A program made the position numbers and the translations under genes. A stretch of DNA of 64,000 nucleotides. Source: Pseudomonadota bacterium (GTDB lineage: Bacteria; Pseudomonadota; Gammaproteobacteria; Ga0077536). Under the pieces are notes generated by a model, which made no database searches, was not told where the DNA came from, and worked only from the letters and a program-made list of their open reading frames with translations. Shown here in pieces: positions 6,029-24,249 of the stretch (position 1 is its first letter; each line of letters begins with the position of its first letter). The stretch lies in contig JABISZ010000101.1 in assembly GCA_018668255.1 (NCBI GenBank), positions 1-64,000 on the forward strand, read 5' to 3'.

Positions 6029-7249
6029 ATGAATGCTGGTGAAGAGCATCTTTTGTCAGGTATACGGGTATTGGATTTCACGCGCGCGCTAGCCGGACCA
6101 ACTTGTACCCGAATGTTTGCAGAACTAGGCGCTGAGGTTATAAAGATTGAAGCGGCACCGCTCGGAGATTTAACAAGAAAGATTTCTAAATTGCGCGCAG
6201 ATAGAAGTTTTTATCATATCCAACATAATCTGAATAAAAAAAGTGTTTGTATCAACTTGCGTGATCCTAGAGGTATGGCATTAGTCGGAGAATTGATTCC
6301 GAAATGTGATGTCGTCGTAGAAAACTTTAGGCCAGGAGTGATGGCTGACATGGGTCTTGATTATGACTCCTTAAAGCAAATGAAGAGTGACATCATCCTT
6401 TGCTCTATTTCAGCATTGGGACAAGAAGGTCCTTTAGCTAAGAAGCCTGGTTATGATTACATCGCCCAAGCGTATTCTGGAGTGACTAGTATGATTGGAC
6501 ACCCCGACGAGTCTCCATGCATCCCTTTAGTTGGAATAGGCGACGTGAGTACAGGGGTCCATGGGGCTTTTGGTATAGCAGCAGCATTACTCCATCGCGC
6601 TCGTACTGGGCGAGGACAACATCTCGACATTTCTTTATTGGACTGTTACTACCACAACCACGAGGTTAACGTACATCAACACTCGGGAAGTGGAGGGAAG
6701 ATTATGCCTACGCGTGGAGGGCGGCATGTTTCATACTTGTGTCCTGCTGGTGTATATCGGGCTAATGGGGGCGATATAATGTTGATGGCTTTTATGCATC
6801 ATTGGCCAGATTTGTGCGCGGCGATGGATAAAAATGAACTGCTAGAGAAAGAAGGTTGGCTGACCGATGCGGAACGGGTAGCGCGTCAGGACGAAGTTAT
6901 CGAGTTCATAGAAAAATGGTTAAAAACTTTTCCAGATGTTGCTAGCGCAATCAAAAAATTAGAAGAATACGATGTTCCATGCGCCCCTGTTTTGACTGTG
7001 GCAGAAACGATTGATCATCCTCATTTGGTAGAAAGAGGTACCGTGCGATCAGTAGTTGATCCTATAGCAGGGGAGTTCAAAATACCTGGTATGCCGATTA
7101 AAACATCAGAGTATGAAGCTAATCAAGATTATACGGCTCCTTGTCTTGGCGAACATAATGCTGATATTTTAAGTTCTTTACTGTCGAAAACTCCTGAGGA
7201 GATTGTTGAAATGGTTGAAGCGGGTATACTTCAATCTGGAGCTACCTGA
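6029..7249 (+). CDS. CaiB/BaiF family III CoA-transferase (1)
   Basis: A 406-residue family III CoA-transferase. The N-terminal GIRVLDFTRALAGP, the AELGAEVIKIE Rossmann-like strand and VVENFRPGV (97-104) are hallmark segments. The catalytic aspartate is expected at Asp172 in GIGDVSTG, the same spacing as the formyl-CoA transferase Asp169. Such enzymes move CoA between carboxylic acids through an aspartyl anhydride. The ATG has only a weak upstream ribosome site. It follows folD by 83 bp and precedes an acyl-CoA dehydrogenase, so it probably activates an acid that the dehydrogenase then oxidises. Confidence 0.92.
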   Translation: MNAGEEHLLSGIRVLDFTRALAGPTCTRMFAELGAEVIKIEAAPLGDLTRKISKLRADRSFYHIQHNLNKKSVCINLRDPRGMALVGELIPKCDVVVENFRPGVMADMGLDYDSLKQMKSDIILCSISALGQEGPLAKKPGYDYIAQAYSGVTSMIGHPDESPCIPLVGIGDVSTGVHGAFGIAAALLHRARTGRGQHLDISLLDCYYHNHEVNVHQHSGSGGKIMPTRGGRHVSYLCPAGVYRANGGDIMLMAFMHHWPDLCAAMDKNELLEKEGWLTDAERVARQDEVIEFIEKWLKTFPDVASAIKKLEEYDVPCAPVLTVAETIDHPHLVERGTVRSVVDPIAGEFKIPGMPIKTSEYEANQDYTAPCLGEHNADILSSLLSKTPEEIVEMVEAGILQSGAT

Positions 7250-7317
7250 ATTTCTCGCGGAGGTAATTCGCGATCTGCTAATAGTATTCTTTAAATAAAA
7301 AGATTAGAGGACTGTGT

Positions 7318-8490
7318 GTGACGGATAGCCTTTTGTTGAATGAAGAACGTCAAATGATTAGAGATACGGCCAGAGATTTCACTTTGAAAGAAGTATTGCC
7401 TGTGGCAAATAGACTCGATCCAGAGCAGGGTGAGATCCCACTTGAACTCAGACAAAAACTGACAGACATGGGTTATTTTGGCATTCGATTGCCTGAGAAG
7501 TACGGCGGGAGTGGTTTGGGCTGCTTCGAATATTGCCTTATTACTGAGCAACTCGCTCGGGGTTGGATGAGCGTGTCGAGCATCATAGCGCGTGGTAACG
7601 GTACTCTGACGATGGACCTTTTATCAGATGAGCAAAAGAATAGACTTATGCCCAAAGTGGTAGCTGGAGAATATCTAGGCGCGATGTCATTGTCAGAGCC
7701 CGACACCGGTTCTGATTTAGCATCTATCTCATGTCGGGCTGAGAAGACTATTGATGGATGGGAAATCACCGGGAATAAATACTGGTGCACATTTGCAGAT
7801 GGCGCTGATTATATTTTGTTATTTGCACGCACTGATGTTGATAAATCTGGGGAGAAGCCACATCTAGGGATCAGTGCTTTTTTGATTGAGAAACCTCGAG
7901 GAAAGCTTCCTTTGGGAGTCAGTGGGTCGACCATTCCCAAAATAGGCTACTTTGGTTGGAATACATGGGAACTTGCTTTTGATCACGTTAGATTGCCTCA
8001 CGATGCCTTAATTGGCGAGGAAGGTAAGGCTTTTTATGCCCTAGCGAAAGGTCTTGATGAAGCTCGTGCGCACACAGCTGCGCGATCGATCGGTTTGGCA
8101 CAAGGTGGACTGGAAGATGCCCTCGCATATGCACAAGAGAGGAAGCAATTCGGCAAACCAATTGCAGCTTTCCAGGATCTAAGATTTAAATTGGCTCGCA
8201 TGGCAACTGATATAGAAGCGGCAAGACAATTACTCTATTACGTGTGCTCTTGCATAGATACGGGCCAAAGATGCGATAAAGAAGCATCAATGGTTAAGTA
8301 TTTTGCAAGTGAGATGGCTGAAAGGGTGACAAGCGACGCGCTCCAAATACTTGGAGGCGCTGGTTATACAAAATTGTGTGCCGTCGAAAGACATTGGCGA
8401 GACGCAAGGTTAACAAAGATCTTCGAAGGTACTTCTGAGATACAGCTAAGGATTATCTCTGATGCTCTTTTGGGCAAAGAAGGACGATAG
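7318..8490 (+). CDS. Acyl-CoA dehydrogenase (1)
   Basis: A 390-residue flavoprotein starting at GTG. It has the FAD-contact segment AMSLSEPDTGSDL (122-134), the second flavin-binding strand near WCTFAD (156-161), and the YAQERKQFGKPIAAFQ helix (271-286). QILGGAGY precedes IFEGTSE, where Glu370 is the expected catalytic base. This matches short/branched-chain acyl-CoA dehydrogenases that form an alpha,beta double bond and pass electrons to ETF. It lies between two CoA-transferase genes on the same strand (gaps of 68 and 36 bp), so the three probably form one operon acting on one acyl-CoA. Confidence 0.95.
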   Translation: MTDSLLLNEERQMIRDTARDFTLKEVLPVANRLDPEQGEIPLELRQKLTDMGYFGIRLPEKYGGSGLGCFEYCLITEQLARGWMSVSSIIARGNGTLTMDLLSDEQKNRLMPKVVAGEYLGAMSLSEPDTGSDLASISCRAEKTIDGWEITGNKYWCTFADGADYILLFARTDVDKSGEKPHLGISAFLIEKPRGKLPLGVSGSTIPKIGYFGWNTWELAFDHVRLPHDALIGEEGKAFYALAKGLDEARAHTAARSIGLAQGGLEDALAYAQERKQFGKPIAAFQDLRFKLARMATDIEAARQLLYYVCSCIDTGQRCDKEASMVKYFASEMAERVTSDALQILGGAGYTKLCAVERHWRDARLTKIFEGTSEIQLRIISDALLGKEGR

Positions 8491-8526
8491 TGCAGTACAT
8501 ACATAAGAATAAGGTCTAACAATTAT

Positions 8527-9711
8527 ATGAGTAAACAGCTGAGTTTCGGAGTTCTTGAAGGGGTTGTGGTTTTAGACCTCACGCAAATGCTTGCGGGCCC
8601 CTATTGCACTATGGTTCTAGCGGATCACGGTGCTGATGTTATTAAAATTGAACCTCCTACTGGTGATATGTCCCGGGGGTTAGGGCCTTTCTCAGCAGAT
8701 GATATAGAGAAAGAACAAGGAGGATACTTCCATAGCATCAATCGTAACAAGCGCAGCATTGCATTGGATCTCAAAGACGAAAATGATAAAAGTACTTTCT
8801 TGCAGTTGGTCAAAACTGCAGACGTGGTGGTTGAGAATTTTCGAAGTGGGGTGATGGATCGACTCGGTTTGAGCTATGAAACTTTGCGAGAGGTCAATAA
8901 AAAGATTGTTTACGCGGCGATTCGTGGGTTTGGTGACCAACGGACGGGTGAGAGTCCCTACAACGAGTGGCCTGCTTTTGATATTGTAGCTCAGGCAATG
9001 GGAGGCTTTATGGCAATGACCGGGCCAGTAGGAATTCCGATGAAAGCTGGACCGGGGGTCGGTGACATTGTCCCAGGATTAATGGCAGCCTTCGGTATAG
9101 TCGCGGGCGTCAGATATGCTGAGAAGAAAGGAGAAGGACAGTTTGTAGATGTAGCTATGTATGACGCAATGCTCGCCCTTTGTGAAAGAAGCGTATATCG
9201 GTACTCAGTTGATGGAGCGATTTCGGAAGGGGCAGGAAATGAACATCCTTTAGTTAATCCGTTTTCAGTATATGAGTCTGCAGACGGTTGGGTCGCCTTG
9301 GGATGCCCAACTAATGTCCAGTGGCATGAGCTGGTTGAGGTTATGGATAACGCGAAATTGAGAAATGAAGAACGATTTAAAACCAATGAATTGCGAGTAG
9401 AAAATGCGGTAGAAGTTAGAGCGGAGATAACGGCTTGGACCTCATTATTCAATAAAAAAGAGCTGGCAGAAAAGCTAGGTGGCCGGGTTCCTTTTGGGCC
9501 TGTAAATAATATCGCAGACATATTTGACGATCCTCACGTAAGCGCCCGGGATATGTTGAGAACTGTATCTGTGCCGGATTCGAAAGTTGAGATAACGATG
9601 TCAGGTGTTCCTGTCCACTACTCGAACACGCCAGGTTCTGTGAGAACAGCAGGCCCCAGACTTGATGAGCATCGTGATGAAGTGTTACAACAATTTTTGG
9701 TACAGTCTTGA
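8527..9711 (+). CDS. CaiB/BaiF family III CoA-transferase (2)
   Basis: A 394-residue family III CoA-transferase with VVVLDLTQMLAGPYC near 13-27, ADVIKIEPP at 36-44, INRNKRS at 71-77 and VVENFRSGVM at 101-110. Catalytic Asp is predicted at 180 (GVGDIVPG). It is only distantly similar to the copy at 6029 by eye, so the pair is unlikely to be a recent duplication. Last gene of the CoA-transferase / dehydrogenase / CoA-transferase run. It could be the partner that returns CoA to another acid, or a racemase-like member of the family; sequence alone cannot decide. Confidence 0.93.
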   Translation: MSKQLSFGVLEGVVVLDLTQMLAGPYCTMVLADHGADVIKIEPPTGDMSRGLGPFSADDIEKEQGGYFHSINRNKRSIALDLKDENDKSTFLQLVKTADVVVENFRSGVMDRLGLSYETLREVNKKIVYAAIRGFGDQRTGESPYNEWPAFDIVAQAMGGFMAMTGPVGIPMKAGPGVGDIVPGLMAAFGIVAGVRYAEKKGEGQFVDVAMYDAMLALCERSVYRYSVDGAISEGAGNEHPLVNPFSVYESADGWVALGCPTNVQWHELVEVMDNAKLRNEERFKTNELRVENAVEVRAEITAWTSLFNKKELAEKLGGRVPFGPVNNIADIFDDPHVSARDMLRTVSVPDSKVEITMSGVPVHYSNTPGSVRTAGPRLDEHRDEVLQQFLVQS

Positions 9712-10509: not shown

Positions 10510-11151
10510 ATGATTAAAGTTTACGGATATTCAGTAAGTAACTATTTCAATCAGGTCGAGTTTGCCTTGCTAGAGAAAGGAATTGATTTTCAATCTATTG
10601 ATACGCAACCGTCACAAGACGATGAGTTCAAAATTAAAAGCCCTATGGGGAAACTCCCTTGTGTTGATATCGATGGGCAATTTTTGTCTGAGGCAAGTGT
10701 AATCATCGAATATTTAGATGTGACTCATGATGGTATAGCACTAATCCCGAGAGAGGCTTTTAGAGCTGCGAGAGTGCGACAGGTAATGAAATGTCTAGAG
10801 TTATATATTGAACTCTCTTGCCGACGCCTTTATGGCGAAGTGTTCTTCAGCGGGCCCCGAGACGAAGCAGCTTTTGAACAAGTCAAACCTGTAATTGAAA
10901 ATGGGCTATCGGCTCTACGACACTTATGCACTTTTGATGAGTATTTGTGTGGCTCTTTTTCGGCTGCTGATATTGTTGCTGCTCACACTTTCATTTATGC
11001 TGCTCCTGTATGCCAAGCTATTTACGACTGGGACATTGTGGCGGAGGTTCCTGATTTAGGTGGTGCGTTAGACTTGATCAATCAGCGGCCCGCAGGAGCT
11101 GAAATTGCTAATAAACAAGCAATAGCGCTTAAAAAAGCATTTAGTACCTGA
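10510..11151 (+). CDS. Glutathione S-transferase family protein
   Basis: A 213-residue GST. The thioredoxin-like N-terminus reads IKVYGYSVSNYFNQVEF, with Ser8 or Ser10 as a candidate glutathione-activating residue. The cis-proline is in GKLPC (Pro50) and the glutathione-binding SEAS motif is at 60-63. A helical C-terminal domain follows. First of four or five closely spaced plus-strand genes (SCP2-like, hydrolase, DUF1329, Nudix). Members of this class conjugate or isomerise electrophiles, and in this context a glutathione-dependent isomerase or lyase of a catabolic route is plausible (inference). Confidence 0.9.
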   Translation: MIKVYGYSVSNYFNQVEFALLEKGIDFQSIDTQPSQDDEFKIKSPMGKLPCVDIDGQFLSEASVIIEYLDVTHDGIALIPREAFRAARVRQVMKCLELYIELSCRRLYGEVFFSGPRDEAAFEQVKPVIENGLSALRHLCTFDEYLCGSFSAADIVAAHTFIYAAPVCQAIYDWDIVAEVPDLGGALDLINQRPAGAEIANKQAIALKKAFST

Positions 11152-11183: not shown

Positions 11184-11585
11184 ATGGAGCGCTCGGTTGT
11201 GTTACCAGTAGAAGCTATCTCAGAGAGGCTAAACAGCGATAAAGAATTCACACTTAGTGCTCGATTTTGGTATTGTGATTTAAGATTCTCTATTGGATCT
11301 GATCTATACTTTATGCGTATTGAAAACGGCAAAGTAGACACTTTTGTAAGCGGCACCGAGGGCTTCGATTCTTACACGATAAGTGTTTCAGCTCCGGAGA
11401 CGGTTTGGGTTGAGATGCTGCAAGAGAAACCAGAACCTTTTTATCATGATTGGTTTGCGGCTTCGTTTCATCACGAGCTCGAATTTGGAGGAGACCTAGA
11501 GTCGGCATACGCTTACTATTCCTCCATACGTAGAATCCACGCCTGTATGGCGGAATGTTATAACGCGCAAAAATTGGCAGCTTAA
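11184..11585 (+). CDS. Small protein, possibly SCP2-like lipid-binding
   Basis: A 133-residue protein starting at ATG with GGAG at 11171-11174 upstream. The central pattern (LSARFWYCDLRFSIGSDLYFMRIENGKVDTF) looks like the beta-sheet of the SCP2 sterol-carrier fold, in which short strands cradle a hydrophobic ligand, but I cannot confirm membership by eye. The C-terminal third is helical and aromatic. It lies 32 bp after the GST and 12 bp before the hydrolase, a tight operon position. A role as ligand carrier for the neighbouring hydrolase is inference. Confidence 0.72.
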   Translation: MERSVVLPVEAISERLNSDKEFTLSARFWYCDLRFSIGSDLYFMRIENGKVDTFVSGTEGFDSYTISVSAPETVWVEMLQEKPEPFYHDWFAASFHHELEFGGDLESAYAYYSSIRRIHACMAECYNAQKLAA

Positions 11586-11597
11586 AGGAGAATCAAA

Positions 11598-12470
11598 ATG
11601 GCTCGTTTTTCAAATATTGTCGGACGTTATGTATACCTTGATGTGGAAGGCATTGAATATCGTGTTTATTTTGAAGAGGCTGGAGAGGGTATACCTTTGG
11701 TCTGTCAGCACACCGCAGGCTCCGACGGTCGTCAATATCGACACTTATTAGAAGATAAAGATATTACGTCTCGCTATAGAGTCATCGCACTCGATCTTCC
11801 TCTGCACGGGAAGTCTTTGCCGCCGGTAGAAAACCGTTACTGGGAAGATGAGTATAAGTTGACGAAAGATTGGTTCATGAAATTTTGGATCAGTTTTGTG
11901 AAAGAGCTTGATTTATTTCAACCTGTTTTTATGGGGTGTTCTATGGGAGGTCATTTGGCAGCTGATTTAGCTTGTCATTATCCAGATGAGTTCAGAGCCT
12001 GCATTGGATTAGAATCTTCATGTCATAGTGGAGGATTCGATAAAATGTTCCAAAAATGGTGGAGGCACCCTAGGTTATCTAATGACACCAAGGCTGCCAT
12101 GATGTTGAGCCTTTGTTCACCTCACTCTCCAGAGACCAATATAAGAGAGACAGTCTGGGCTTACAGTCAGGGTGCGCCGCCAGTATTTTCCGGCGACTTA
12201 AATTATTATGGGATAGAACATGATCTTAGAGAGACCGCTGGCGAAATTGATACGGCAAAGTGTATGTTTTATGTGCTCAGCGGAACATATGACTGGTCTG
12301 CTTATCCAGAGGCATGCCAAGAGCTAGCAAACAAGGTGTCGGGAGCGCAATATACCTTGATGGAAGGTATGGGGCATTTCCCAATGTCTGAGAATCCTGT
12401 AGAGTTTAAAAAATATCTGATGCCCGTGCTTGCAGACATTGAACAAAAAGATCAGGTAGTAGCAGCTTAA
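11598..12470 (+). CDS. Alpha/beta hydrolase
   Basis: A 290-residue hydrolase with AAAGGAG just upstream of ATG. The oxyanion region reads CQHTAGSDGRQ (36-46) rather than HGxG. The nucleophile elbow is GCSMGG (113-118, Ser115) and the catalytic His lies in GMGHFPM near 270. There is an insertion rich in charged and aromatic residues around 75-95 (ENRYWEDEY). No signal peptide. Translationally close to the SCP2-like gene. The substrate is unknown; relatives cleave esters or C-C bonds in ring-degradation pathways. Confidence 0.9.
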   Translation: MARFSNIVGRYVYLDVEGIEYRVYFEEAGEGIPLVCQHTAGSDGRQYRHLLEDKDITSRYRVIALDLPLHGKSLPPVENRYWEDEYKLTKDWFMKFWISFVKELDLFQPVFMGCSMGGHLAADLACHYPDEFRACIGLESSCHSGGFDKMFQKWWRHPRLSNDTKAAMMLSLCSPHSPETNIRETVWAYSQGAPPVFSGDLNYYGIEHDLRETAGEIDTAKCMFYVLSGTYDWSAYPEACQELANKVSGAQYTLMEGMGHFPMSENPVEFKKYLMPVLADIEQKDQVVAA

Positions 12471-12501: not shown

Positions 12502-12523
12502 ACCTGTCTAATTTTGGACAGGT
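12502..12523 (+). repeat. Hairpin upstream of the DUF1329 gene
   Basis: ACCTGTC-TAATTTTG-GACAGGT is a perfect 7-bp stem with an 8-nt loop in the 76-bp gap after the hydrolase. No T-run follows, so it is not a classical terminator. It may protect the mRNA end or adjust expression of the downstream secreted protein. Confidence 0.4.
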
Positions 12524-12546
12524 CCCATTTATGGAGTGGCTTTCGG

Positions 12547-13872
12547 ATGAAGGTATTATCTTTTTTTAGAATTTTTGGTTTTATTGGTGTCGCTTGTTTC
12601 GCTACACAAGGCGCTGCCGCCTCCGTGTCCCGAGCAGATATTACTACTTGGCTTAATCAGGTTGTCACTATGGATCCGCCAGCTGCAGGGACTGTGGTGA
12701 CTGACACCAATCTCGACCTAGTTCGCCCTTTTATGCCACCAGGTTACGTTGAAGAATTTTCTTATGCTGGTAGCTCTATCACTATACAAGAGACCAAAAA
12801 ATATCCGCTTTTTAAAGCTTATCAAGATGCGACAAATAAATATGCGGGGCAGCCAACACTCGGCGCTGGGGGAGAGCTTGAAGATTATCAAGCCGGGCAA
12901 CCTTTCTCTAACGAACAAATTGCAGCCGCATCTTCCGAGCATGCTGGTCTTATGGTAGCTTGGAATAATATCTATCGATGGCAGTTTACAGGATACCAAG
13001 TCTCGAAACTTGCAATGACATATATTGATCAAGGAGACGGAAAAAATGGAAAGAAAGAGTCTAGTTACGGCATCGAAGGTGACGGTCGTATCGAGCGACG
13101 GGTAATACAAGAGTTCCATCGAGTATATTTGAGTAATTTGGCTATGCTGCCTAAAGACGACTATAAGATGAAAGTACCTAGTGCCGCTGATAAATATTTT
13201 AAGGATTATATTGAGTTCTCTGACCCTTTTGATATAGCGGGCATGAAGTTTGTGGTTGAGCGCGCTCAGGATGCGCATGCGGATGACCAAGTGAATGTAT
13301 ATTCCCCTACTGAACGCCGAGTTCGTAGGTATTCGGCTAAAGAAAGGTCGGATAGCTTTATGGGGAGTGAAGTAACGTTAGATGATTTTGATGGCTTTGC
13401 CGGTCGGGTGTTAGATTATCAATGGGATTACTTAGGTACAAAAAAAGTATTGGACGTCATTGATACTGAAGGAGAACCGATTCGGTTTGGTGGTCCTTAT
13501 AGCCGAGCAATTATCGATCGCTGGCAATTGCGGAATTGTCATGTGGTGGAAGTTAAGTCTACGTGGGATGGGCACCCGTATAAGAGCAAAATAATATTTA
13601 TTGATGACGAAACCTTTGATATAGCGAATGCCCTTGTTTTTAATCAGAAGGACGAGTTGTGGAAAATATTTGATGCGATGTATCGATCGCCAAAAATCGG
13701 TGAAACAGAAGCGGAAAAATCTGTTGTCAGTTGGAGAGGGCAGTCAAACATTAATTTAATTACGAATCGAGCTACTTTGGTACATGCAATGTCAGACACA
13801 ATTCATCCGACCATGAAACCTTCAAAGATCAAGCGACTGTTTAGTGTATCCTCCCTAACCAGCGGACAGTAG
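12547..13872 (+). CDS. DUF1329 family exported protein
   Basis: The track starts at a TTG (12514). ATG at 12547 has GGAG at 12533-12536 and begins a clean signal peptide (MKVLSFFRIFGFIGVACFATQGAAA), so I start there; 441 residues. The mature part matches the DUF1329 family (outer-membrane-lipoprotein-sorting-like fold), with recognisable stretches such as FSDPFDIAGMKFV and RKVRRY-like VRRYSAKERSDSF. In many proteobacteria these proteins are encoded near RND/MMPL transporters and are suspected to serve transport of hydrophobic compounds; that function is not proven. An RND/MMPL gene occurs 45 kb away at 57987. Confidence 0.9.
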   Translation: MKVLSFFRIFGFIGVACFATQGAAASVSRADITTWLNQVVTMDPPAAGTVVTDTNLDLVRPFMPPGYVEEFSYAGSSITIQETKKYPLFKAYQDATNKYAGQPTLGAGGELEDYQAGQPFSNEQIAAASSEHAGLMVAWNNIYRWQFTGYQVSKLAMTYIDQGDGKNGKKESSYGIEGDGRIERRVIQEFHRVYLSNLAMLPKDDYKMKVPSAADKYFKDYIEFSDPFDIAGMKFVVERAQDAHADDQVNVYSPTERRVRRYSAKERSDSFMGSEVTLDDFDGFAGRVLDYQWDYLGTKKVLDVIDTEGEPIRFGGPYSRAIIDRWQLRNCHVVEVKSTWDGHPYKSKIIFIDDETFDIANALVFNQKDELWKIFDAMYRSPKIGETEAEKSVVSWRGQSNINLITNRATLVHAMSDTIHPTMKPSKIKRLFSVSSLTSGQ

Positions 13873-13917: not shown

Positions 13918-14532
13918 TTGTCTTTGCTAAGTCTTGAAGTTCTCAGAGCTGCTCTTGACGCTCAAAAGCTTGATAGGCGTGTATTTGAGCCAAATGCAAC
14001 TCATGCGTCTGTTGCTATGATCCTAACAAGACGAGACGGAGATCTAGAAGTCTGTTTTATCAGAAGAGCCGAGCGTGAAGGTGACCCTTGGTCTGGCCAG
14101 GTTGCATTCCCTGGAGGACGGGCTTCACCGTTAGATAAGAGTCCTGCTCATGTTGCGGAGAGAGAAACATCTGAAGAAGTCGGACTAGATATAAACGAAA
14201 GCGAGAGAATTGGTTCTCTGCCCCAGAGAGTAATAGAAAGAAAAGACTTGAAAGGCAATTTAACTTTATCGCCTATCGTTTACTATATTGAAAGTAAGAA
14301 AGCAGAGAAAGCTATCGCCCTTCAAAAAGCGGAAGTAGCCCACGTTTTCTGGGTTCCTCTATCGCACTTATTTAACGAGGATTTCGTAACTGAGATTGAA
14401 TACCCAATGGGGGGACAGTTACGAAATTTTCCTGGCATCACGCATGATGGCGAGGTGATCTGGGGCCTCACATTGAGAGTGTTACAAAGCTTCTCCGAAG
14501 CCGTAGGAGTGCCGATGCCAGCGACTTGCTGA
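13918..14532 (+). CDS. Nudix hydrolase, NudL-like CoA pyrophosphatase
   Basis: A 204-residue protein that must start at TTG (13918) or another non-ATG codon; no in-frame ATG lies close upstream. The Nudix box is GGRASPLDKS..AERETSEEVGL, with the RETSEEVG helix that binds the metal. The QVAFPGGRASPLD extension fits the CoA-diphosphatase branch (NudL/NUDT7), which cleaves CoA and its derivatives to phosphopantetheine and 3',5'-ADP. In a window rich in acyl-CoA enzymes a role in CoA turnover makes sense. It ends the plus-strand run and converges with the gene at 14563. Confidence 0.88.
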   Translation: MSLLSLEVLRAALDAQKLDRRVFEPNATHASVAMILTRRDGDLEVCFIRRAEREGDPWSGQVAFPGGRASPLDKSPAHVAERETSEEVGLDINESERIGSLPQRVIERKDLKGNLTLSPIVYYIESKKAEKAIALQKAEVAHVFWVPLSHLFNEDFVTEIEYPMGGQLRNFPGITHDGEVIWGLTLRVLQSFSEAVGVPMPATC

Positions 14533-14562: not shown

Positions 14563-15243
14563 TTACGGTTTTGCCATACCTATCCGTTCATAGTATTTCA
14601 ATGGTATTTTGTCTGGATCTTTGTAAATAAATAAAGAGCAGTCATCGCAGCCAAGGTTTTCTGCAGGTTCAACTACTATGAAAGGTTTTCCATTCTCTTC
14701 AATATCAATTTTTTCCATGGCATATTCATGGGCGCAGTAAACGGGATAATCATTGCGGTTGTAGGTCATTGCTTGAGGTTCTTTTATCTTTAGGAATGCA
14801 TTTTTCCCTTCATATTTCCCTTCCGAAATTAATCTTCCTCCGCTTCCACACGGTCGCAGCTTGATTTCTATTTTCTCTTCATCTTCTGTTATACCTAGTG
14901 GCTGAAGGTGTCCATGCAAGCCGGAGGCAAACATTTTCACTCTAGCGGCAAGAGTGTCTTCGCCTTTGGGTAAGTTTGATACAATAGGCTGCCACCAAGC
15001 TCGGACACCTTCAACCATGATTTCATCCAGCGCTTGGTCCCCATATCTCTGTCCTACTTCTGTGAGAGTAGCCGTGATCCAGTTGCGGTATAAGTCATGC
15101 ATGCTTAAGAACTCGTTGTACATTCGGCTAGCTATTTTTTTAGCCCCTTCCGAATCACCTGCATCTATAGCTTCAGTGAGTCTATCAACCGTGCGTTTCT
15201 CCATTTCCCGAAGCTCTTCGTCTGTGAAAAGTTTGGTCGTCAT
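14563..15243 (-). CDS. Unrecognised protein with conserved-looking Cys/His motifs
   Basis: I do not recognise this 226-residue protein. The first half is helical and charged (SMHDLYRNWITATLTEVGQRYG). The second half is strand-rich and holds PCGSGGRL (about 131-138), YPVYCAHE and GCDDCSLF, i.e. at least four cysteines and a histidine that could bind a metal or an Fe-S cluster, and it ends with DPDKIPLKYYERIG. No signal peptide or membrane helix. It lies 25 bp behind the TauD-type dioxygenase and is the last gene of a three-gene minus-strand operon with an LLM oxidoreductase. A redox partner or accessory factor for these oxygenases is one possibility (inference). Confidence 0.85.
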   Translation of the reverse strand: MTTKLFTDEELREMEKRTVDRLTEAIDAGDSEGAKKIASRMYNEFLSMHDLYRNWITATLTEVGQRYGDQALDEIMVEGVRAWWQPIVSNLPKGEDTLAARVKMFASGLHGHLQPLGITEDEEKIEIKLRPCGSGGRLISEGKYEGKNAFLKIKEPQAMTYNRNDYPVYCAHEYAMEKIDIEENGKPFIVVEPAENLGCDDCSLFIYKDPDKIPLKYYERIGMAKP

Positions 15244-15268
15244 TTTTTTCCCCTAGCAGTTGTTGTGT

Positions 15269-16108
15269 TTAAGCGGGTCGATCCCCTTTTAATGTCACAC
15301 GATACATCATCCGACGACACCCATGGTAGTCGTTGAGTGCATTGTGTTGCGCTGCGCGATTGTCCCAAAAAGCAAGTGAGCCTGGCTTCCAATGAAATCG
15401 GCACGTAAACTCCTCACGTTGTTGAAGACTATACAAATAATTAAGTATTGGAGCGCTTTCGGCCACAGTCATGCCTTCAATATTCATCGTATGAGCGGCA
15501 CTGCAGTAAAGTGCTTTTCGCCCTGTTTCAGGATGAGTTCTAACAAGTGGATGCGCCGAGGTGGTGATAATTTCAGCAGCTTGTTTGGGCTTCTCAGCTA
15601 TTCGGTGGGTCCGGCCTAATGCCGCATCCGGTTTTTCTGCGCTATTAACGCCCTTCAGATCGTTTAAAATATCTTTCATTTTGTTACTTAGCGCGTCGTA
15701 AGCTAAATACATGTTTGAAAATAGTGTATCGCCTCCTATAGGAGGGACATCAAGAGCATAGAGCAGCGATCCTAACGGGGGTTCTTGCAGGTAACTGGTA
15801 TCTGTGTGCCAGAGTCCCCCAAAATTAACTTTTTCTCCTTCTTTTTTTTCTACCTCTACCACTTCAGGGAAATCTCTCATTCCCTCTACGAAAGGGTAGT
15901 ATCCTATTTCGCCAAAACTGCGTGCTACTTGAACGAGGGTCTTTGGTGTTAAGTCTTGCTCATTGAAAAAGACTACTTGATGTTCTAAGAATGCGGCTCG
16001 GATCGTATTGACTATAGAAGGTGAGAGTTCATGACTTAGATCGACATGATCAATCACCGCACCAATTGCAGGGGTTAGTGGACGAACTGAAATCGTGGAA
16101 TCGATCAT
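15269..16108 (-). CDS. TauD/TfdA-family Fe(II)/2-oxoglutarate dioxygenase
   Basis: A 279-residue TauD/TfdA-type enzyme. The iron facial triad is visible: His101 and Asp103 in WHTDTSYL and a distal His near 255 in AAQHNAL. The 2-oxoglutarate-binding Arg is near 270 in MMYRVTL. N-terminal LTPAIGAVIDHVDLS is typical. These enzymes hydroxylate a substrate next to a heteroatom (sulfonate, ether, ester), causing cleavage. It is the middle gene of the LLM / TauD / unknown operon, which pairs two mono- or dioxygenation steps. The substrate is unknown. Confidence 0.93.
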   Translation of the reverse strand: MIDSTISVRPLTPAIGAVIDHVDLSHELSPSIVNTIRAAFLEHQVVFFNEQDLTPKTLVQVARSFGEIGYYPFVEGMRDFPEVVEVEKKEGEKVNFGGLWHTDTSYLQEPPLGSLLYALDVPPIGGDTLFSNMYLAYDALSNKMKDILNDLKGVNSAEKPDAALGRTHRIAEKPKQAAEIITTSAHPLVRTHPETGRKALYCSAAHTMNIEGMTVAESAPILNYLYSLQQREEFTCRFHWKPGSLAFWDNRAAQHNALNDYHGCRRMMYRVTLKGDRPA

Positions 16109-16143
16109 GGTGCACTCGCTCTTATTATTTGCTGTTATTTGTT

Positions 16144-16980
16144 TTAATGAACGGCTTGTCTAATAGTGCCATCGATTTGTTCAATAATCTCTTTATACTC
16201 ATCGAGTGTCTCATAACTTTGGGTGTGCACAAATTCTGTTACACCAGCCTCTTTGTATGCGGCTGCGAGATCTATTGCCTTGTTCTTTTCATTTAAAGGC
16301 AGCGTTTTCATCATCACTACTTCTAAACGTTTCAATCCGGATTCGTCAGTCTTTCTATTCCATTCGGTCATGGTAGATTTTATATTAGCGGGTGTCTGTC
16401 CAAATGCAGGTTGCCAGCCTGTTCCGAAGGCTATTGCTCTTGGTATGGCTATTTCAGCGATACCTCCAATGTAAATGGGTGGAAGTGATAGTTGAGGTTT
16501 GATGAGGAAATCTTGGCCATTTAAATTGTGGAGAGCTCCATTAGAGGCCTCATGTAAAAATTTTAATGTTTCATCGGTTATCTTGCCACGTTTCGTTTTG
16601 AGCACTCCAAGCGCCGTAAATTCTTCTTTGAGATATCCCGGGCCACAGCCAAGAAGGAATCTGTTTTTTGAAAGTACTTGTATACTAGCAATCAACTTAC
16701 CAGTCACGACGGCAGGCCTATATGGCAAGACCAAGACGCCCGTGCCAAATCTTATGCGGGCGGTAATCCCTGCTAGGTAACTTGCGACGGCCAAGGGATC
16801 AAGTATATCTCCCATACTGGGGTCAATTTGGTATTCATTATCAAACACAGGTGGCAGGCCAAGGTGATCATTTAACCAAATTGAGTCGAGAGCAGAGTCA
16901 TCAGCTGAACGCGCACAAGCGGCAAGAAAGTCTGGCTTTGCTGTTGGCCCCCAGTTTCGTATATTCATCCCTAACTTCAT
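16144..16980 (-). CDS. LLM-class flavin-dependent oxidoreductase (1)
   Basis: A 278-residue luciferase-like TIM-barrel protein. The sequence starts MKLGMNIRNWGP, then WLNDHLGLPP, ITARIRFGTGVLVLPYRPAV and FLLGCGPGYLKEEFTALGV, all typical of the family that is often annotated as F420-dependent. PIYIGGIAEIAIPRAIAFGTGW closes the flavin site. The cofactor (FMN or F420) cannot be read from the sequence. It is the first gene of the minus-strand operon with a TauD-type dioxygenase (35-bp gap) and the Cys/His protein, and diverges from the GFA gene. Confidence 0.92.
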   Translation of the reverse strand: MKLGMNIRNWGPTAKPDFLAACARSADDSALDSIWLNDHLGLPPVFDNEYQIDPSMGDILDPLAVASYLAGITARIRFGTGVLVLPYRPAVVTGKLIASIQVLSKNRFLLGCGPGYLKEEFTALGVLKTKRGKITDETLKFLHEASNGALHNLNGQDFLIKPQLSLPPIYIGGIAEIAIPRAIAFGTGWQPAFGQTPANIKSTMTEWNRKTDESGLKRLEVVMMKTLPLNEKNKAIDLAAAYKEAGVTEFVHTQSYETLDEYKEIIEQIDGTIRQAVH

Positions 16981-17087: not shown

Positions 17088-17498
17088 ATGTCTAAATTAA
17101 AAGGTGGCTGCATGTGTGGGGATATACAATATGATGTAGAAGGTGATTCAAGCGTGACGGGTATTTGTCATTGCCCGGACTGTAAACGGCAGACAGGTTC
17201 AGCATTCTCGACGATTGTAGGAGTTGGTGCGGATCAGATCGTTGTCGAGGGAACTCCTCGCATCTATAAAACTAAAGGTATAAGTGGTGAGGGTGTTTTA
17301 AGACATTTTTGCGGAAACTGCGGTTCGCCTTTGTATTCAGTAGTCAACTCGATGCCGGGTGTCGCTTTTATTAAAGCTGGAACACTTGACGACACCTCTT
17401 GGCTAGTTCCTACTATTGAGTTCTTCTGCGATAATGCAGATATTTGGACAACTCAGGATGTTCAGAGGCAAAAGTTTGGTCTGATGCCCCCTGGCTGA
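17088..17498 (+). CDS. GFA-family zinc protein
   Basis: A 136-residue GFA-type protein (glutathione-dependent formaldehyde-activating fold). Zinc ligands are visible as CMC (Cys8, Cys10), CHCPDC (Cys27, Cys29, Cys32) and FCGNCG near 87-90. The RQTGSAFS stretch and GGCMCGDIQY start are diagnostic. The founding member binds glutathione and S-hydroxymethylglutathione, but most members have no proven activity. It is a single gene convergent with the acyl-CoA synthetase. Confidence 0.92.
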   Translation: MSKLKGGCMCGDIQYDVEGDSSVTGICHCPDCKRQTGSAFSTIVGVGADQIVVEGTPRIYKTKGISGEGVLRHFCGNCGSPLYSVVNSMPGVAFIKAGTLDDTSWLVPTIEFFCDNADIWTTQDVQRQKFGLMPPG

Positions 17499-17515: not shown

Positions 17516-19072
17516 CTAGTTGACTGCTTTTTTAAGCCCTTTCCAGAAGGGCTTTCTTAATTCTGTTTTCAGTACTTTGCCTGCGCCGGATAAAGGTAAA
17601 GGTTCGGTGCGCAGGGTTATTGAACGCGGACATTTGAAATCAGCGATTAATGCACGGCAGTGCGACATTAACTCCTCTGGAGAAATTTTTTCGTCGTTCT
17701 CAGTAAGGACTATCGCATGGACTCTTTCACCCCATTTCTCATCGGGTACTCCTATGACGGCGCATTGTGCGACTTTGGGATGCTGATACATTGCATTTTC
17801 GACCTCTGCTGAGTAGACGTTTTCTCCACCAGATATAATCATGTCTTTGAGGCGGTCACTAATAAATATGAAGCCTTCTTCATCCATGTGCGCGGCATCA
17901 CCCGTATGAAGCCAGCCATTTCTGATAGTTTCTTGAGTAAGCTTTTCTTGTCCCCAATAGCCTTTCATGATGTTTGGACCTCTAGCTATGATTTCTCCAA
18001 TAGTCCCGCGAGGAACTTCGTTACCACCCTCGTCGATGATCTTTATCTCAACTGCAGGCATTGCTCTGCCGGCGGATCTCAAGCGGCCAGCCAAAGGACC
18101 AGTTGTGACGTGGTACGAGGGATCTAACGAAGTTAAAAGAGGGGCAGATTCAGTCTGCCCGTACAAATGGTATGCCTTTACATGCGGCAATTTTTCAATG
18201 AGTTCTCCTGCCACTGCTTCTGGCATAGGTGATGCACCATAGTACAAATGTTTGAGAGAACTAAAGTTGTAACTTGAGAACTCAGGGAGAGCGAGTAGCA
18301 TTTGAATCATCGTTGGCACGAGAATTATGTCGCTTATAGCATGTTTGCCTATAGCTTCTGCACATGTTTGGGGTTCAAACCGAGACACAAAAACATGGCA
18401 GCCAGCTAATTGAGTGATGGTATAAAAGAACTCAGCATCGGCAATATGAAAGGCTGGAGCGGCATGGAGATAGTTCATTCCATCACTTGTTTCCATTAGC
18501 GCCGCAGATTGAAAAGTATTAGACATATGGTTTTCATGGGTTAGCATTACGCCTTTCGACCTCCCAGTAGTACCACCGGTATAAAAAATACCCGAGATGT
18601 CGTCGCCATTGTTATGGAACTCAGGAACACTATCGGAAGCGGCGATTAGTTTCTCATGTGTGGCGTCAGACCCTAGGAATTCACTTTCCAATGCTATGAT
18701 AGTTAACTCATGATTGACTAGCTTTCTAAGGTCGCTTGCTAATCCGCCAAATTCATCATCGAGAAACACAAATTTTGTTCCTGAGTCATTTAATGCGAAT
18801 GCGATCTCAGGGGCAGACCATCTATAGTTTATCGGAACGATCACACCTCCTGCCCAGGGCGCAGCAAAAAGAGTTTCTAAATACTTGTCGGAGTTAAGAC
18901 TTACGATAGCAACTCTGTCTTGAGTTTGCAGGCCGCACTTGAGCAGGCCTGATGCGAGCTTTGAGATTCTTTCTACAAGTTCTTCCCACGTCGTACGGCG
19001 ATCTCCAAAGATAGTTGCAATAGCTTTGGGTTTTTGTTGAAGGTTTCTTATAAGTGCTTGCGTGACGCGCAT
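17516..19072 (-). CDS. AMP-dependent acyl-CoA synthetase/ligase
   Basis: A 518-residue adenylate-forming enzyme. The P-loop reads FYTGGTTGRSKG, the adenine motif is YHLYGQTESAP, the ATP-binding strand is GWLHTGDAAHMDEEGF and the hinge is RLKDMIISGGENV. The C-terminal PLSGAGKVLKTELRK contains the catalytic lysine. All core residues seem present. It should activate a free acid via an acyl-AMP to the CoA thioester; length and motifs fit medium/long-chain fatty-acid or aromatic-acid ligases. Downstream of the NMO-like gene by 43 bp on the same strand. Confidence 0.94.
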   Translation of the reverse strand: MRVTQALIRNLQQKPKAIATIFGDRRTTWEELVERISKLASGLLKCGLQTQDRVAIVSLNSDKYLETLFAAPWAGGVIVPINYRWSAPEIAFALNDSGTKFVFLDDEFGGLASDLRKLVNHELTIIALESEFLGSDATHEKLIAASDSVPEFHNNGDDISGIFYTGGTTGRSKGVMLTHENHMSNTFQSAALMETSDGMNYLHAAPAFHIADAEFFYTITQLAGCHVFVSRFEPQTCAEAIGKHAISDIILVPTMIQMLLALPEFSSYNFSSLKHLYYGASPMPEAVAGELIEKLPHVKAYHLYGQTESAPLLTSLDPSYHVTTGPLAGRLRSAGRAMPAVEIKIIDEGGNEVPRGTIGEIIARGPNIMKGYWGQEKLTQETIRNGWLHTGDAAHMDEEGFIFISDRLKDMIISGGENVYSAEVENAMYQHPKVAQCAVIGVPDEKWGERVHAIVLTENDEKISPEELMSHCRALIADFKCPRSITLRTEPLPLSGAGKVLKTELRKPFWKGLKKAVN

Positions 19073-19115: not shown

Positions 19116-20114
19116 TTAGGCTTTTTCTAGTAGGGCTTTTTTGTATTCGATCGATAGTGTGCTCATTAACGTCGCCACTGAAATTACTTCGCGCACTTGA
19201 GACACCGAGGTGCCAGCATAGAGTGGCATTTCTTCTATATCACCATCGAAAGCGCTTGTTGGAGGGTAAGTTGTATAGCGAGTCAGAGGGACGAGGGTAT
19301 CTTCAATAGAGACAGTTCCGATTTGAGAACCTTCGCCTGGTCTTTGTCCCGGAGAGCGACTATCGTTGTCAACCCAGCGATTGTATGCATCGTTCATAAC
19401 CACTCGGTGGTTTGCATCGGCCCAACCTCCGTCAAAAAGCTTGGTGATAACCGTATCATCAGAATTAGCCAGAATGAGTCTCTCTTTGTACTCTTTGGCA
19501 GCAGATGACTCAGTTGTTGCAAGAAATCTAGTCCCCATAGAAACTGCCTCTGCGCCACTAGTTAACGCTTTTAATATGTCCTTTCCGGTACCAATCCCCC
19601 CAGAGGCTATTGTTGGGATAGCACCGAGCTCTCGAGCACAACTTTGTAGCGTTTCGAAAAGAGGCGATTTGGCTTTAACATGCCCTCCTGCCTCAGTACC
19701 CTGCATAATGATTCCACTCGCACCAGCATCTGCTGCGATTACCGCTTCTTCAACTGATCCGCATTGGCTGACGATATAGATCCCTTTTTTTTGTGCATCT
19801 TTAATATAGGGTTGTACGTCACCCCAAAAAAGAACTACAACTTTTACTCCTGCATCAAAGCAGGCGGCCACGTCGGATCCGTCCGACATCGGTATTATGA
19901 TATTTGCACCAAGAGGCTTTTTGGTTAGTTTTTTAGTTGCCTCGATCATGGATTTTATCGCCCCTGCCGGCATCGCCCCTGCACCTAAGACTCCAAATCC
20001 ACCTGCACCGCTTATGGCGGCGACGAGATCAGGCCCTGCTAAGCCCAGCCCCATGCCTGCGTTCCATATGGGCTCTTTATGGTTTAGATGATCAAGCATG
20101 TTTCTCTTTCTCAT
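19116..20114 (-). CDS. NAD(P)H-dependent flavin oxidoreductase, nitronate monooxygenase-like
   Basis: The track ORF begins at 20195, but the family normally starts shortly before the PIWNAGMG strand. ATG at 20114 has AAGAAGG at a 10-nt distance, so I choose it (332 residues). The barrel shows GLAGPDLVAAISGAGGFGVLG, GVKVVVLFWGD, QGTEAGGH (substrate/FMN loop) and IPTIASGGIGTG, which contacts FMN phosphate. NMO relatives oxidise nitronates or reduce enoyl-type substrates (FabK-like). Pairing with an acyl-CoA synthetase gene makes a lipid-type substrate plausible (inference). An upstream start giving 359 residues cannot be excluded. Confidence 0.88.
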   Translation of the reverse strand: MRKRNMLDHLNHKEPIWNAGMGLGLAGPDLVAAISGAGGFGVLGAGAMPAGAIKSMIEATKKLTKKPLGANIIIPMSDGSDVAACFDAGVKVVVLFWGDVQPYIKDAQKKGIYIVSQCGSVEEAVIAADAGASGIIMQGTEAGGHVKAKSPLFETLQSCARELGAIPTIASGGIGTGKDILKALTSGAEAVSMGTRFLATTESSAAKEYKERLILANSDDTVITKLFDGGWADANHRVVMNDAYNRWVDNDSRSPGQRPGEGSQIGTVSIEDTLVPLTRYTTYPPTSAFDGDIEEMPLYAGTSVSQVREVISVATLMSTLSIEYKKALLEKA

Positions 20115-20369
20115 TAGACATAGGCCTTCTTTGAACTTCCAGTGCATTATAGTCTTGATCATCCAAAAGTCGTTGGTCTTAATCTTTCGACTCACTTTTA
20201 CCTCTTAACGTAGGAGTGTTATTTTTAAGTACCTGACTAAGTAAAGACTTTTTGCTGTCTAGAGATGTGGGTAACGTTACGCAAAGTTAATCTGTTAGCA
20301 ACAATAAGATGCTGATCTAAGATATACACTATATCTATGTGTCATACGTTTCCCAATGGCACGTTTTGA

Positions 20370-23403: not shown

Positions 23404-24249
23404 ATGGTAGCTAGTGGAGTAATTATTTTTGCAACTGATCAATCTATACAACCAGTAGAATTGGCACGTGAAGTAGAGTCTAGGGGATTAGATTCGTTGT
23501 TTTTGCCTGAACATACACATATTCCTCTTGATACGACGTCTCCTTTTTTTCCGAATGGGGAAGTTCCTCCTATGTATTTGAGAACTTACGATCCCTTCGT
23601 GGCTCTTGGGGCCTGCGCGGCAGTGACAGATAGGATTAAATTGGGTACAGGGATATGTTTGGTGTCCCAGCGGCACCCTATAACTTTGGCGAAAGAAGTC
23701 GCAACCATTGATCAATTATCCGATGGAAGATTTATTTTCGGTGTGGGAGCAGGGTGGAATAAGCCAGAGGTAGAAAATCATGGAACAGAGTTTTCAGAAC
23801 GTTGGCGAGTACTGCGTGAGAGGATTTTAGCTATGAAAACTATCTGGACTGAGGAAGAGCCGGAGTTTCATGGTGAGTTTATCAATTTTGAGAAAATGTG
23901 GTCATTTCCAAAACCCATTCAGAAAGGAGGACCACCTATTTGGATAGGTTCCAATTCGAAATATGTTGGCGAACGTGTAGCTGAATATGGTGATGGCTGG
24001 CTGCCTATCGGCGGTCGACCCGGCGACGGTACTGTGGAATCTGTGAAGGCGGCTTGCACGAAACGGGGTCGTTCGTATCAGGACCTTGATTTAGCATTGT
24101 TTCTAGCGCCATTGAATGAGCGAGAATTAGAGGAGCAACTAGCTTTTGGCTATAATCACGTGGTTTTTGGCCTGCCTTCTGATAGTAGGGAGGTCGTGTT
24201 ACCGGTATTAGATAAAATTATGGCATTAAAAGAAAAAGTTCTCCGATAA
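23404..24249 (+). CDS. LLM-class flavin-dependent oxidoreductase (2)
   Basis: A 281-residue luciferase-like barrel: FLPEHTHIPLD near 36, TDRIKLGTGICLVSQRHPITLAKEVATID in the middle, and GRFIFGVGAGWNKPEVENHG. PIWIGSNSKYVGERVAEYGDGWLP ends the flavin site. Closest in style to the group often called probable F420-dependent oxidoreductases. Its stop is 10 bp before the srkA start, so the two genes are likely co-transcribed although functionally unrelated. Upstream, a 123-bp gap separates it from the SDR gene. Confidence 0.92.
   Translation: MVASGVIIFATDQSIQPVELAREVESRGLDSLFLPEHTHIPLDTTSPFFPNGEVPPMYLRTYDPFVALGACAAVTDRIKLGTGICLVSQRHPITLAKEVATIDQLSDGRFIFGVGAGWNKPEVENHGTEFSERWRVLRERILAMKTIWTEEEPEFHGEFINFEKMWSFPKPIQKGGPPIWIGSNSKYVGERVAEYGDGWLPIGGRPGDGTVESVKAACTKRGRSYQDLDLALFLAPLNERELEEQLAFGYNHVVFGLPSDSREVVLPVLDKIMALKEKVLR

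Follow-up and report, generated by a model that had tools for sequence, protein, structure and literature searches.

The window, the whole 64,000-nucleotide stretch of DNA that was analysed, carries three adjacent genes on its reverse strand:

14563..15243, reverse strand: a 226-residue protein, here named X226 (orthologues, AlphaFold2 model, Foldseek and profile comparisons)
15269..16108, reverse strand: TauD/TfdA-family Fe(II)/2-oxoglutarate dioxygenase (TauD), 279 residues (PF02668 and alignment to E. coli TauD)
16144..16980, reverse strand: luciferase-like (LLM/LLHT) flavin or F420 oxidoreductase (LLM), 278 residues (PF00296; TIGR03619 below cut-off)

The intergenic gaps are exactly 35 bp between LLM and TauD and 25 bp between TauD and X226, in agreement with a preliminary description of this DNA, and all three open reading frames are present. 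Because the frames are conserved across related genomes, the three are real genes. A gene for a GFA-domain protein begins 107 bp upstream of LLM and runs in the opposite direction, so that LLM, TauD and X226 look like a separate unit of transcription. Their close spacing suggests that this unit is a single one. A promoter and terminator scan returned nothing above chance, and no promoter was identified.

LLM and TauD are both unremarkable members of their families. TauD is homologous to PF02668 over its full length (E 1.1e-66, Pfam). Alignment to E. coli TauD identifies the iron ligands H101, D103 and H255, the 2-oxoglutarate arginine R266, and T128, each invariant in 15 orthologues; the HxD...H iron triad and the 2-oxoglutarate-binding Arg/Thr of the TauD/TfdA family are therefore all in place. 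These residues point to a Fe(II)/2-oxoglutarate hydroxylase. R270 is likewise kept in the 15 orthologues. By homology along the full length, iron and 2-oxoglutarate ligands, and R270, the protein resembles both taurine dioxygenase TauD and (R)-phenoxypropionate dioxygenase (PF02668), and the PDB relatives ranking highest by E-value are (R)-phenoxypropionate dioxygenases and their variants. In contrast to the E. coli taurine dioxygenase, however, the window protein and its orthologues have replaced or deleted H70, N95, F159 and F206, the taurine-contacting positions of that enzyme. Moreover, its score of 239.1 bits does not reach the curated equivalog cut-off of 313 for taurine dioxygenase (NCBIfam). 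Assignment as a taurine dioxygenase proper was rejected on these two grounds. As R270 is retained and the taurine residues are lost, the substrate is likely to be anionic but not taurine.

LLM matches PF00296 (E 6.9e-31, Pfam), and its best NCBIfam model is the F420 subfamily TIGR03619, with 144.4 bits against a curated cut-off of 166.9. Among the 25 host-family genomes searched, a CofH-type FO synthase exceeds its family cut-off in 22, the window's own being one of these, and CofD is found in 24. The relatives' loci that were read have the order cofE-cofD-cofC-fbiC; CofH and CofD were identified by family search, and cofE and cofC were recognised directly from sequence. As these genomes encode F420 biosynthesis, F420 is a possible cofactor of LLM, and the enzyme is not necessarily an oxygenase. 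LLM is probably a luciferase-fold redox enzyme for which F420 is a likelier cofactor than FMN, and an F420-linked reaction appears at least as likely as flavin monooxygenation. Its best NCBIfam model and the F420 genes of its host liken it to the F420-dependent luciferase-like hydride transferases (TIGR03619), but it falls under their curated cut-off, and F420 use is predicted from genome content. The earlier designation of LLM as an oxygenase is not upheld by this evidence, and the proposed order of a flavin step followed by an Fe/2-oxoglutarate step finds no support. The reason for F420 production in Proteobacteria has been listed among open questions (PMC8498797).

F420 biosynthesis genes, including at least an FO synthase fusion and cofD, lie outside the window in the same genome (G000:C51:236-4075), whose gammaproteobacterial family is uncultured. 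A first look at the host family gives dozens of LLM-family candidates per genome. The window itself holds a second, stronger LLM-family gene (183.8 bits) at 23404-24249, near ThiC and an SDR gene.

The third product, X226, represents a coherent family without a name in Pfam or NCBIfam, as had been proposed, save for one doubtful partial match to B12-binding_2 (PF02607; residues 20-70, E 2e-5). An NCBIfam search returned nothing credible, and a single search of the literature on the motif was likewise without a relevant result. Orthologues occur in 26 of 36 host-family genomes, namely the window's own and 25 others at 56-96% identity, and in 12 Binatia-type MAGs at 58-65% identity; the latter are titled Binatota, Binatia, Deltaproteobacteria or Proteobacteria and form one clade in the tree. 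A 299-genome sample of the phylum yielded only one remote extra match, which indicates that the close family is lineage-restricted. More remote relatives are longer (337-434 residues) and have one- and two-domain forms. One of them, at L073:129-1433, carries the CGSGG/CxxC domain twice, complete and in tandem, as if an X226-like domain had been duplicated. A relative on plasmid pRHL3 of R. jostii RHA1 is 34% identical over the full length and sits among genes for acyl-CoA dehydrogenase, 2-oxoacid dehydrogenase, alcohol dehydrogenase and AMP-ligase. In the Rhodococcus plasmid operons L081 and L082, longer X226-like proteins are found beside AllG (DUF1116), two glutamine-synthetase-like genes and SDRs, in what forms an unassigned catabolic cluster.

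Alignments of X226 with all relatives leave H49, C132-GSG-R137, C170, G185, C202 and K208 invariant, and position 192 is Glu or Asp in every relative. The patterns PCGSGG, YCAHE and CDDC, singled out in the preliminary description, do all occur in the 226-residue product. Within them, conservation falls on C132 of the first, C170 and H172 of the second, and C202, the last Cys of the third. C199, the first Cys of CDDC, is limited to the host genus, and CDDC was rejected as a motif for this reason. At position 173, a Glu in X226, an additional Cys is present in most of the relatives that fall outside the orthologue group. Four of the conserved positions are candidate metal ligands:

14848..14850, reverse strand: Cys132 codon (PCGSGGR), invariant in the alignments
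14734..14736, reverse strand: Cys170 codon (YCxH), invariant in the alignments
14668..14670, reverse strand: Glu192 codon, acidic (E/D) in all relatives; compare Glu172 of DmpR
14638..14640, reverse strand: Cys202 codon, invariant in the alignments

An AlphaFold2 model of X226, built from a 26-row alignment (pLDDT 90, pTM 0.85), has the element order beta-beta-alpha...alpha-beta-beta. Foldseek with this model gave no PDB match at E<=0.001 and no match among viral structures. The best natural matches are BcsD proteins and the phenol-binding V4R-fold domain of MopR (7vqf; E 0.09, prob 0.72, TM-scores only 0.36-0.41). PDB sequence searches with X226, its alignment and ATC_hydrolase sequences gave nothing useful, and the Pfam V4R (PF02830) and ATC_hydrolase (PF14196) HMMs matched none of 18 X226 members at E<=10. 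In hhalign, the broad X226 alignment scores 37 against ATC_hydrolase (P 1.1e-4, probability 57%), a value reached by none of 300 column shuffles (maximum 22.1); the alignment spans residues 34-134 only and pairs Cys132 with an ATC Cys. Against V4R the score is 27.5 (P 0.003, probability 10%), reached by none of 200 shuffles; subsets of V4R are weaker, with the score reached by 3 of 150. DUF6125 (P 0.004) was not relied on as a relative, since one sequence and only 37 columns are involved.

V4R, ATC hydrolase, HNOB and MetOD1 have already been grouped, with three Cys common to V4R, ATC and MetOD1 (PMC5847659), and the zinc ligands of DmpR are Cys151, Glu172, Cys177 and Cys185 (PMC7264223). In the profile match, X226 shares with the ring-opening L-2-amino-thiazoline-4-carboxylate hydrolases of PF14196 the Cys after the beta hairpin; the later Cys, Glu and Cys come in similar order, a correspondence made by eye beyond aligned residues 34-134. 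It differs from them in the GSGGR after the first Cys, the YCxH motif, the N-terminal helices and the lack of a direct HMM match. With the V4R/XylR_N domains of DmpR and MopR it shares, in the predicted structure and the alignments, the order of structural elements, PVxC at a helix start, Glu before the last Cys and a candidate zinc-type ligand set. Cys170, Glu192 and Cys202 follow the same order as in DmpR at similar spacing, while Cys132 is near the position of DmpR Trp128, which lies between the ligand pocket and the zinc. Unlike these regulators, X226 has no AAA+ or DNA-binding parts, and the statistics of the comparison are weak. C132, C170, E/D192 and C202 are conserved in X226 and its relatives and, judged by alignment, may correspond to the V4R zinc site of three Cys and one Glu.

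Because several weak lines agree, namely fold, profiles, literature grouping and ligand order, residues ~96-210 of X226 are predicted to form a metal-binding V4R/ATC-hydrolase-like domain behind an N-terminal helical part. Each of the fold, the profiles and the Cys/Glu pattern is a weak indication, but they agree with one another in favouring the V4R/ATC superfamily, and X226 is probably a new branch of it. The profile and structure searches that had been suggested for the 226-residue protein thus gave this lead, though no clear match to a named family.

The operon sits in a conserved CoA-dependent catabolic island that is common to five genera, with gains and losses:

6029..9711, forward strand: CoA-transferase III, acyl-CoA dehydrogenase and CoA-transferase III; far end of the island
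10510..11151, forward strand: glutathione S-transferase (GST); conserved island member
11184..11585, forward strand: 133-residue protein with no Pfam match; conserved island member
11598..12470, forward strand: alpha/beta hydrolase; conserved island member
12514..13872, forward strand: DUF1329 protein; island member in g1
13918..14532, forward strand: NUDIX hydrolase, convergent; conserved island member
17088..17498, forward strand: GFA-domain protein, divergent from LLM; gene order kept in g1, g4 and g6
17516..19072, reverse strand: acyl-CoA ligase; conserved island member
19116..20195, reverse strand: nitronate-monooxygenase-like (NMO) FMN enzyme; conserved island member, start codon uncertain

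The set of genes retained varies among the five genera and is drawn from NMO, acyl-CoA ligase, GFA, NUDIX, alpha/beta hydrolase, the 133-residue protein, GST, the two CoA-transferases III and the acyl-CoA dehydrogenase. The degradation role suggested for the operon fits these surroundings. The 133-residue protein stays beside the alpha/beta hydrolase in five genera. The listed GTG start of the NMO gene gives 359 residues as compared to 328-336 in relatives, and the true start is therefore probably downstream.

The distribution of the island genes was followed by tblastn. LLM, TauD and X226 are together in two genera (g1 and g6), and their order is kept beyond the species. Genera g5 and g7 have TauD-X226 without LLM, g4 has TauD-LLM without X226 beside the pair, g3 has X226 without TauD and LLM, and in g10 the genes are dispersed. 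The three genes, whose co-occurrence the preliminary description had proposed to check, accordingly stand side by side in two genera, while others keep pairs or X226 alone. The operon is a lineage-specific combination within the conserved island. TauD directly precedes X226 in 11 genomes, which belong to four genera. X226 is present in 17/17 host-family genomes with a TauD orthologue and in 9/19 without one; the associated p of 4e-4 is too optimistic, since shared descent within one lineage makes these genomes non-independent. In the X226-bearing genomes of Binatia type, no TauD exceeds 40% identity.

Elsewhere the neighbours of X226 are different: in g3 a PTE-family gene precedes it by 26-112 bp, and other copies adjoin a P450 (g4), an amidohydrolase (g8) or a FIST protein (Binatia). 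Because X226 is found without TauD and beside P450, PTE-type hydrolases and FIST proteins, it is a modular accessory. The proposal that it is tied to two enzymes does not hold, as it is widespread without LLM and TauD. In the tree, the g4 copies of X226 that lie outside the island (L061, L062, L047) fall together with those of Binatia (92/79, not decisive), which hints at horizontal transfer.

From the observed gene order, residues and distribution, we infer the following steps. The three genes would form the core of a CoA-dependent catabolic island for an anionic organic substrate. TauD would hydroxylate this substrate, and LLM, leaning towards F420, would perform a further redox step. The C-terminal domain of X226 probably holds one metal ion via C132, C170, E192 and C202, and X226 would bind or hydrolyse a small organic intermediate from whichever enzyme it is paired with. 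The CoA-ligase, CoA-transferases and acyl-CoA dehydrogenase would then carry the carboxylate onward. The pairing would be modular, with TauD in the host lineage and P450, PTE-type or amidohydrolase enzymes in others. Taken as a whole, this model is put forward tentatively, with confidence a little short of even.

A rival view, of lower probability, holds that X226 does no catalysis and instead senses or carries a small molecule: binding a ligand as V4R domains do, it would tune the expression of catabolic genes or pass an intermediate on. The V4R domains of DmpR and MopR sense aromatic compounds, and at two Binatia loci X226 is followed, after 32-40 bp and on the same strand, by a gene belonging to one cluster, which in L043 encodes a FIST sensory-domain protein. 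However, X226 has no fused DNA-binding or output domain, its neighbours are mostly enzymes, and its best profile match, ATC_hydrolase, is an enzyme family. It is unlikely that the three genes are neighbours through island history alone, with a function of X226 unrelated to TauD and LLM. The mosaic losses (the g4 island without X226, g5 and g7 without LLM) and the different neighbours of X226 elsewhere are consistent with such a history, but TauD-X226 spacing is kept at 26-49 bp over four genera despite divergence to ~67-75% identity, and the co-occurrence in all TauD-bearing genomes, albeit of one lineage, also argues against it.

The preliminary description had hinted at a redox or iron-sulfur protein passing electrons to LLM or TauD, and the three invariant Cys and conserved His of X226 would suit this role. 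It is nevertheless improbable: Cys 132, 170 and 202 are far apart, the CxxC is gone outside the host genus, X226 is found without either partner, and TauD enzymes are not known to need an electron-donor protein. Least probable is a corrinoid (B12) cap-domain protein, as implied by the sole Pfam match. PF02607 does match 11 of 18 members (best 2.9e-6), with the window protein above cut-off, but the match takes in a helical hairpin and just 50 of the profile's 74 positions. X226 has neither a Rossmann B12-binding domain by Pfam nor a DxHxxG motif, and most of the remote relatives have no PF02607 match; B12 binding was rejected.

A bolder form of the preferred reading, in which X226 is a V4R/ATC-like metal domain acting on the intermediate of its partner, would make it one branch of an unrecognised family that uses the V4R scaffold (CGSGG...YCxH...E...C) for metal-dependent hydrolase or lyase chemistry. 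Its members would plug in as second enzymes and resolve what TauD, P450 and other oxidative enzymes produce, and the island would constitute a new F420/2-oxoglutarate-linked degradation pathway; we regard this extension as speculative and quite doubtful.

If the preferred reading is right, it would provide a superfamily and a testable metal site for a family that is now called hypothetical or is liable to a B12-binding label, and that ranges over uncultured Gammaproteobacteria, Binatia and the catabolic plasmids of Rhodococcus. It would also draw attention to a degradation island conserved among Gammaproteobacteria with F420 biosynthesis genes.
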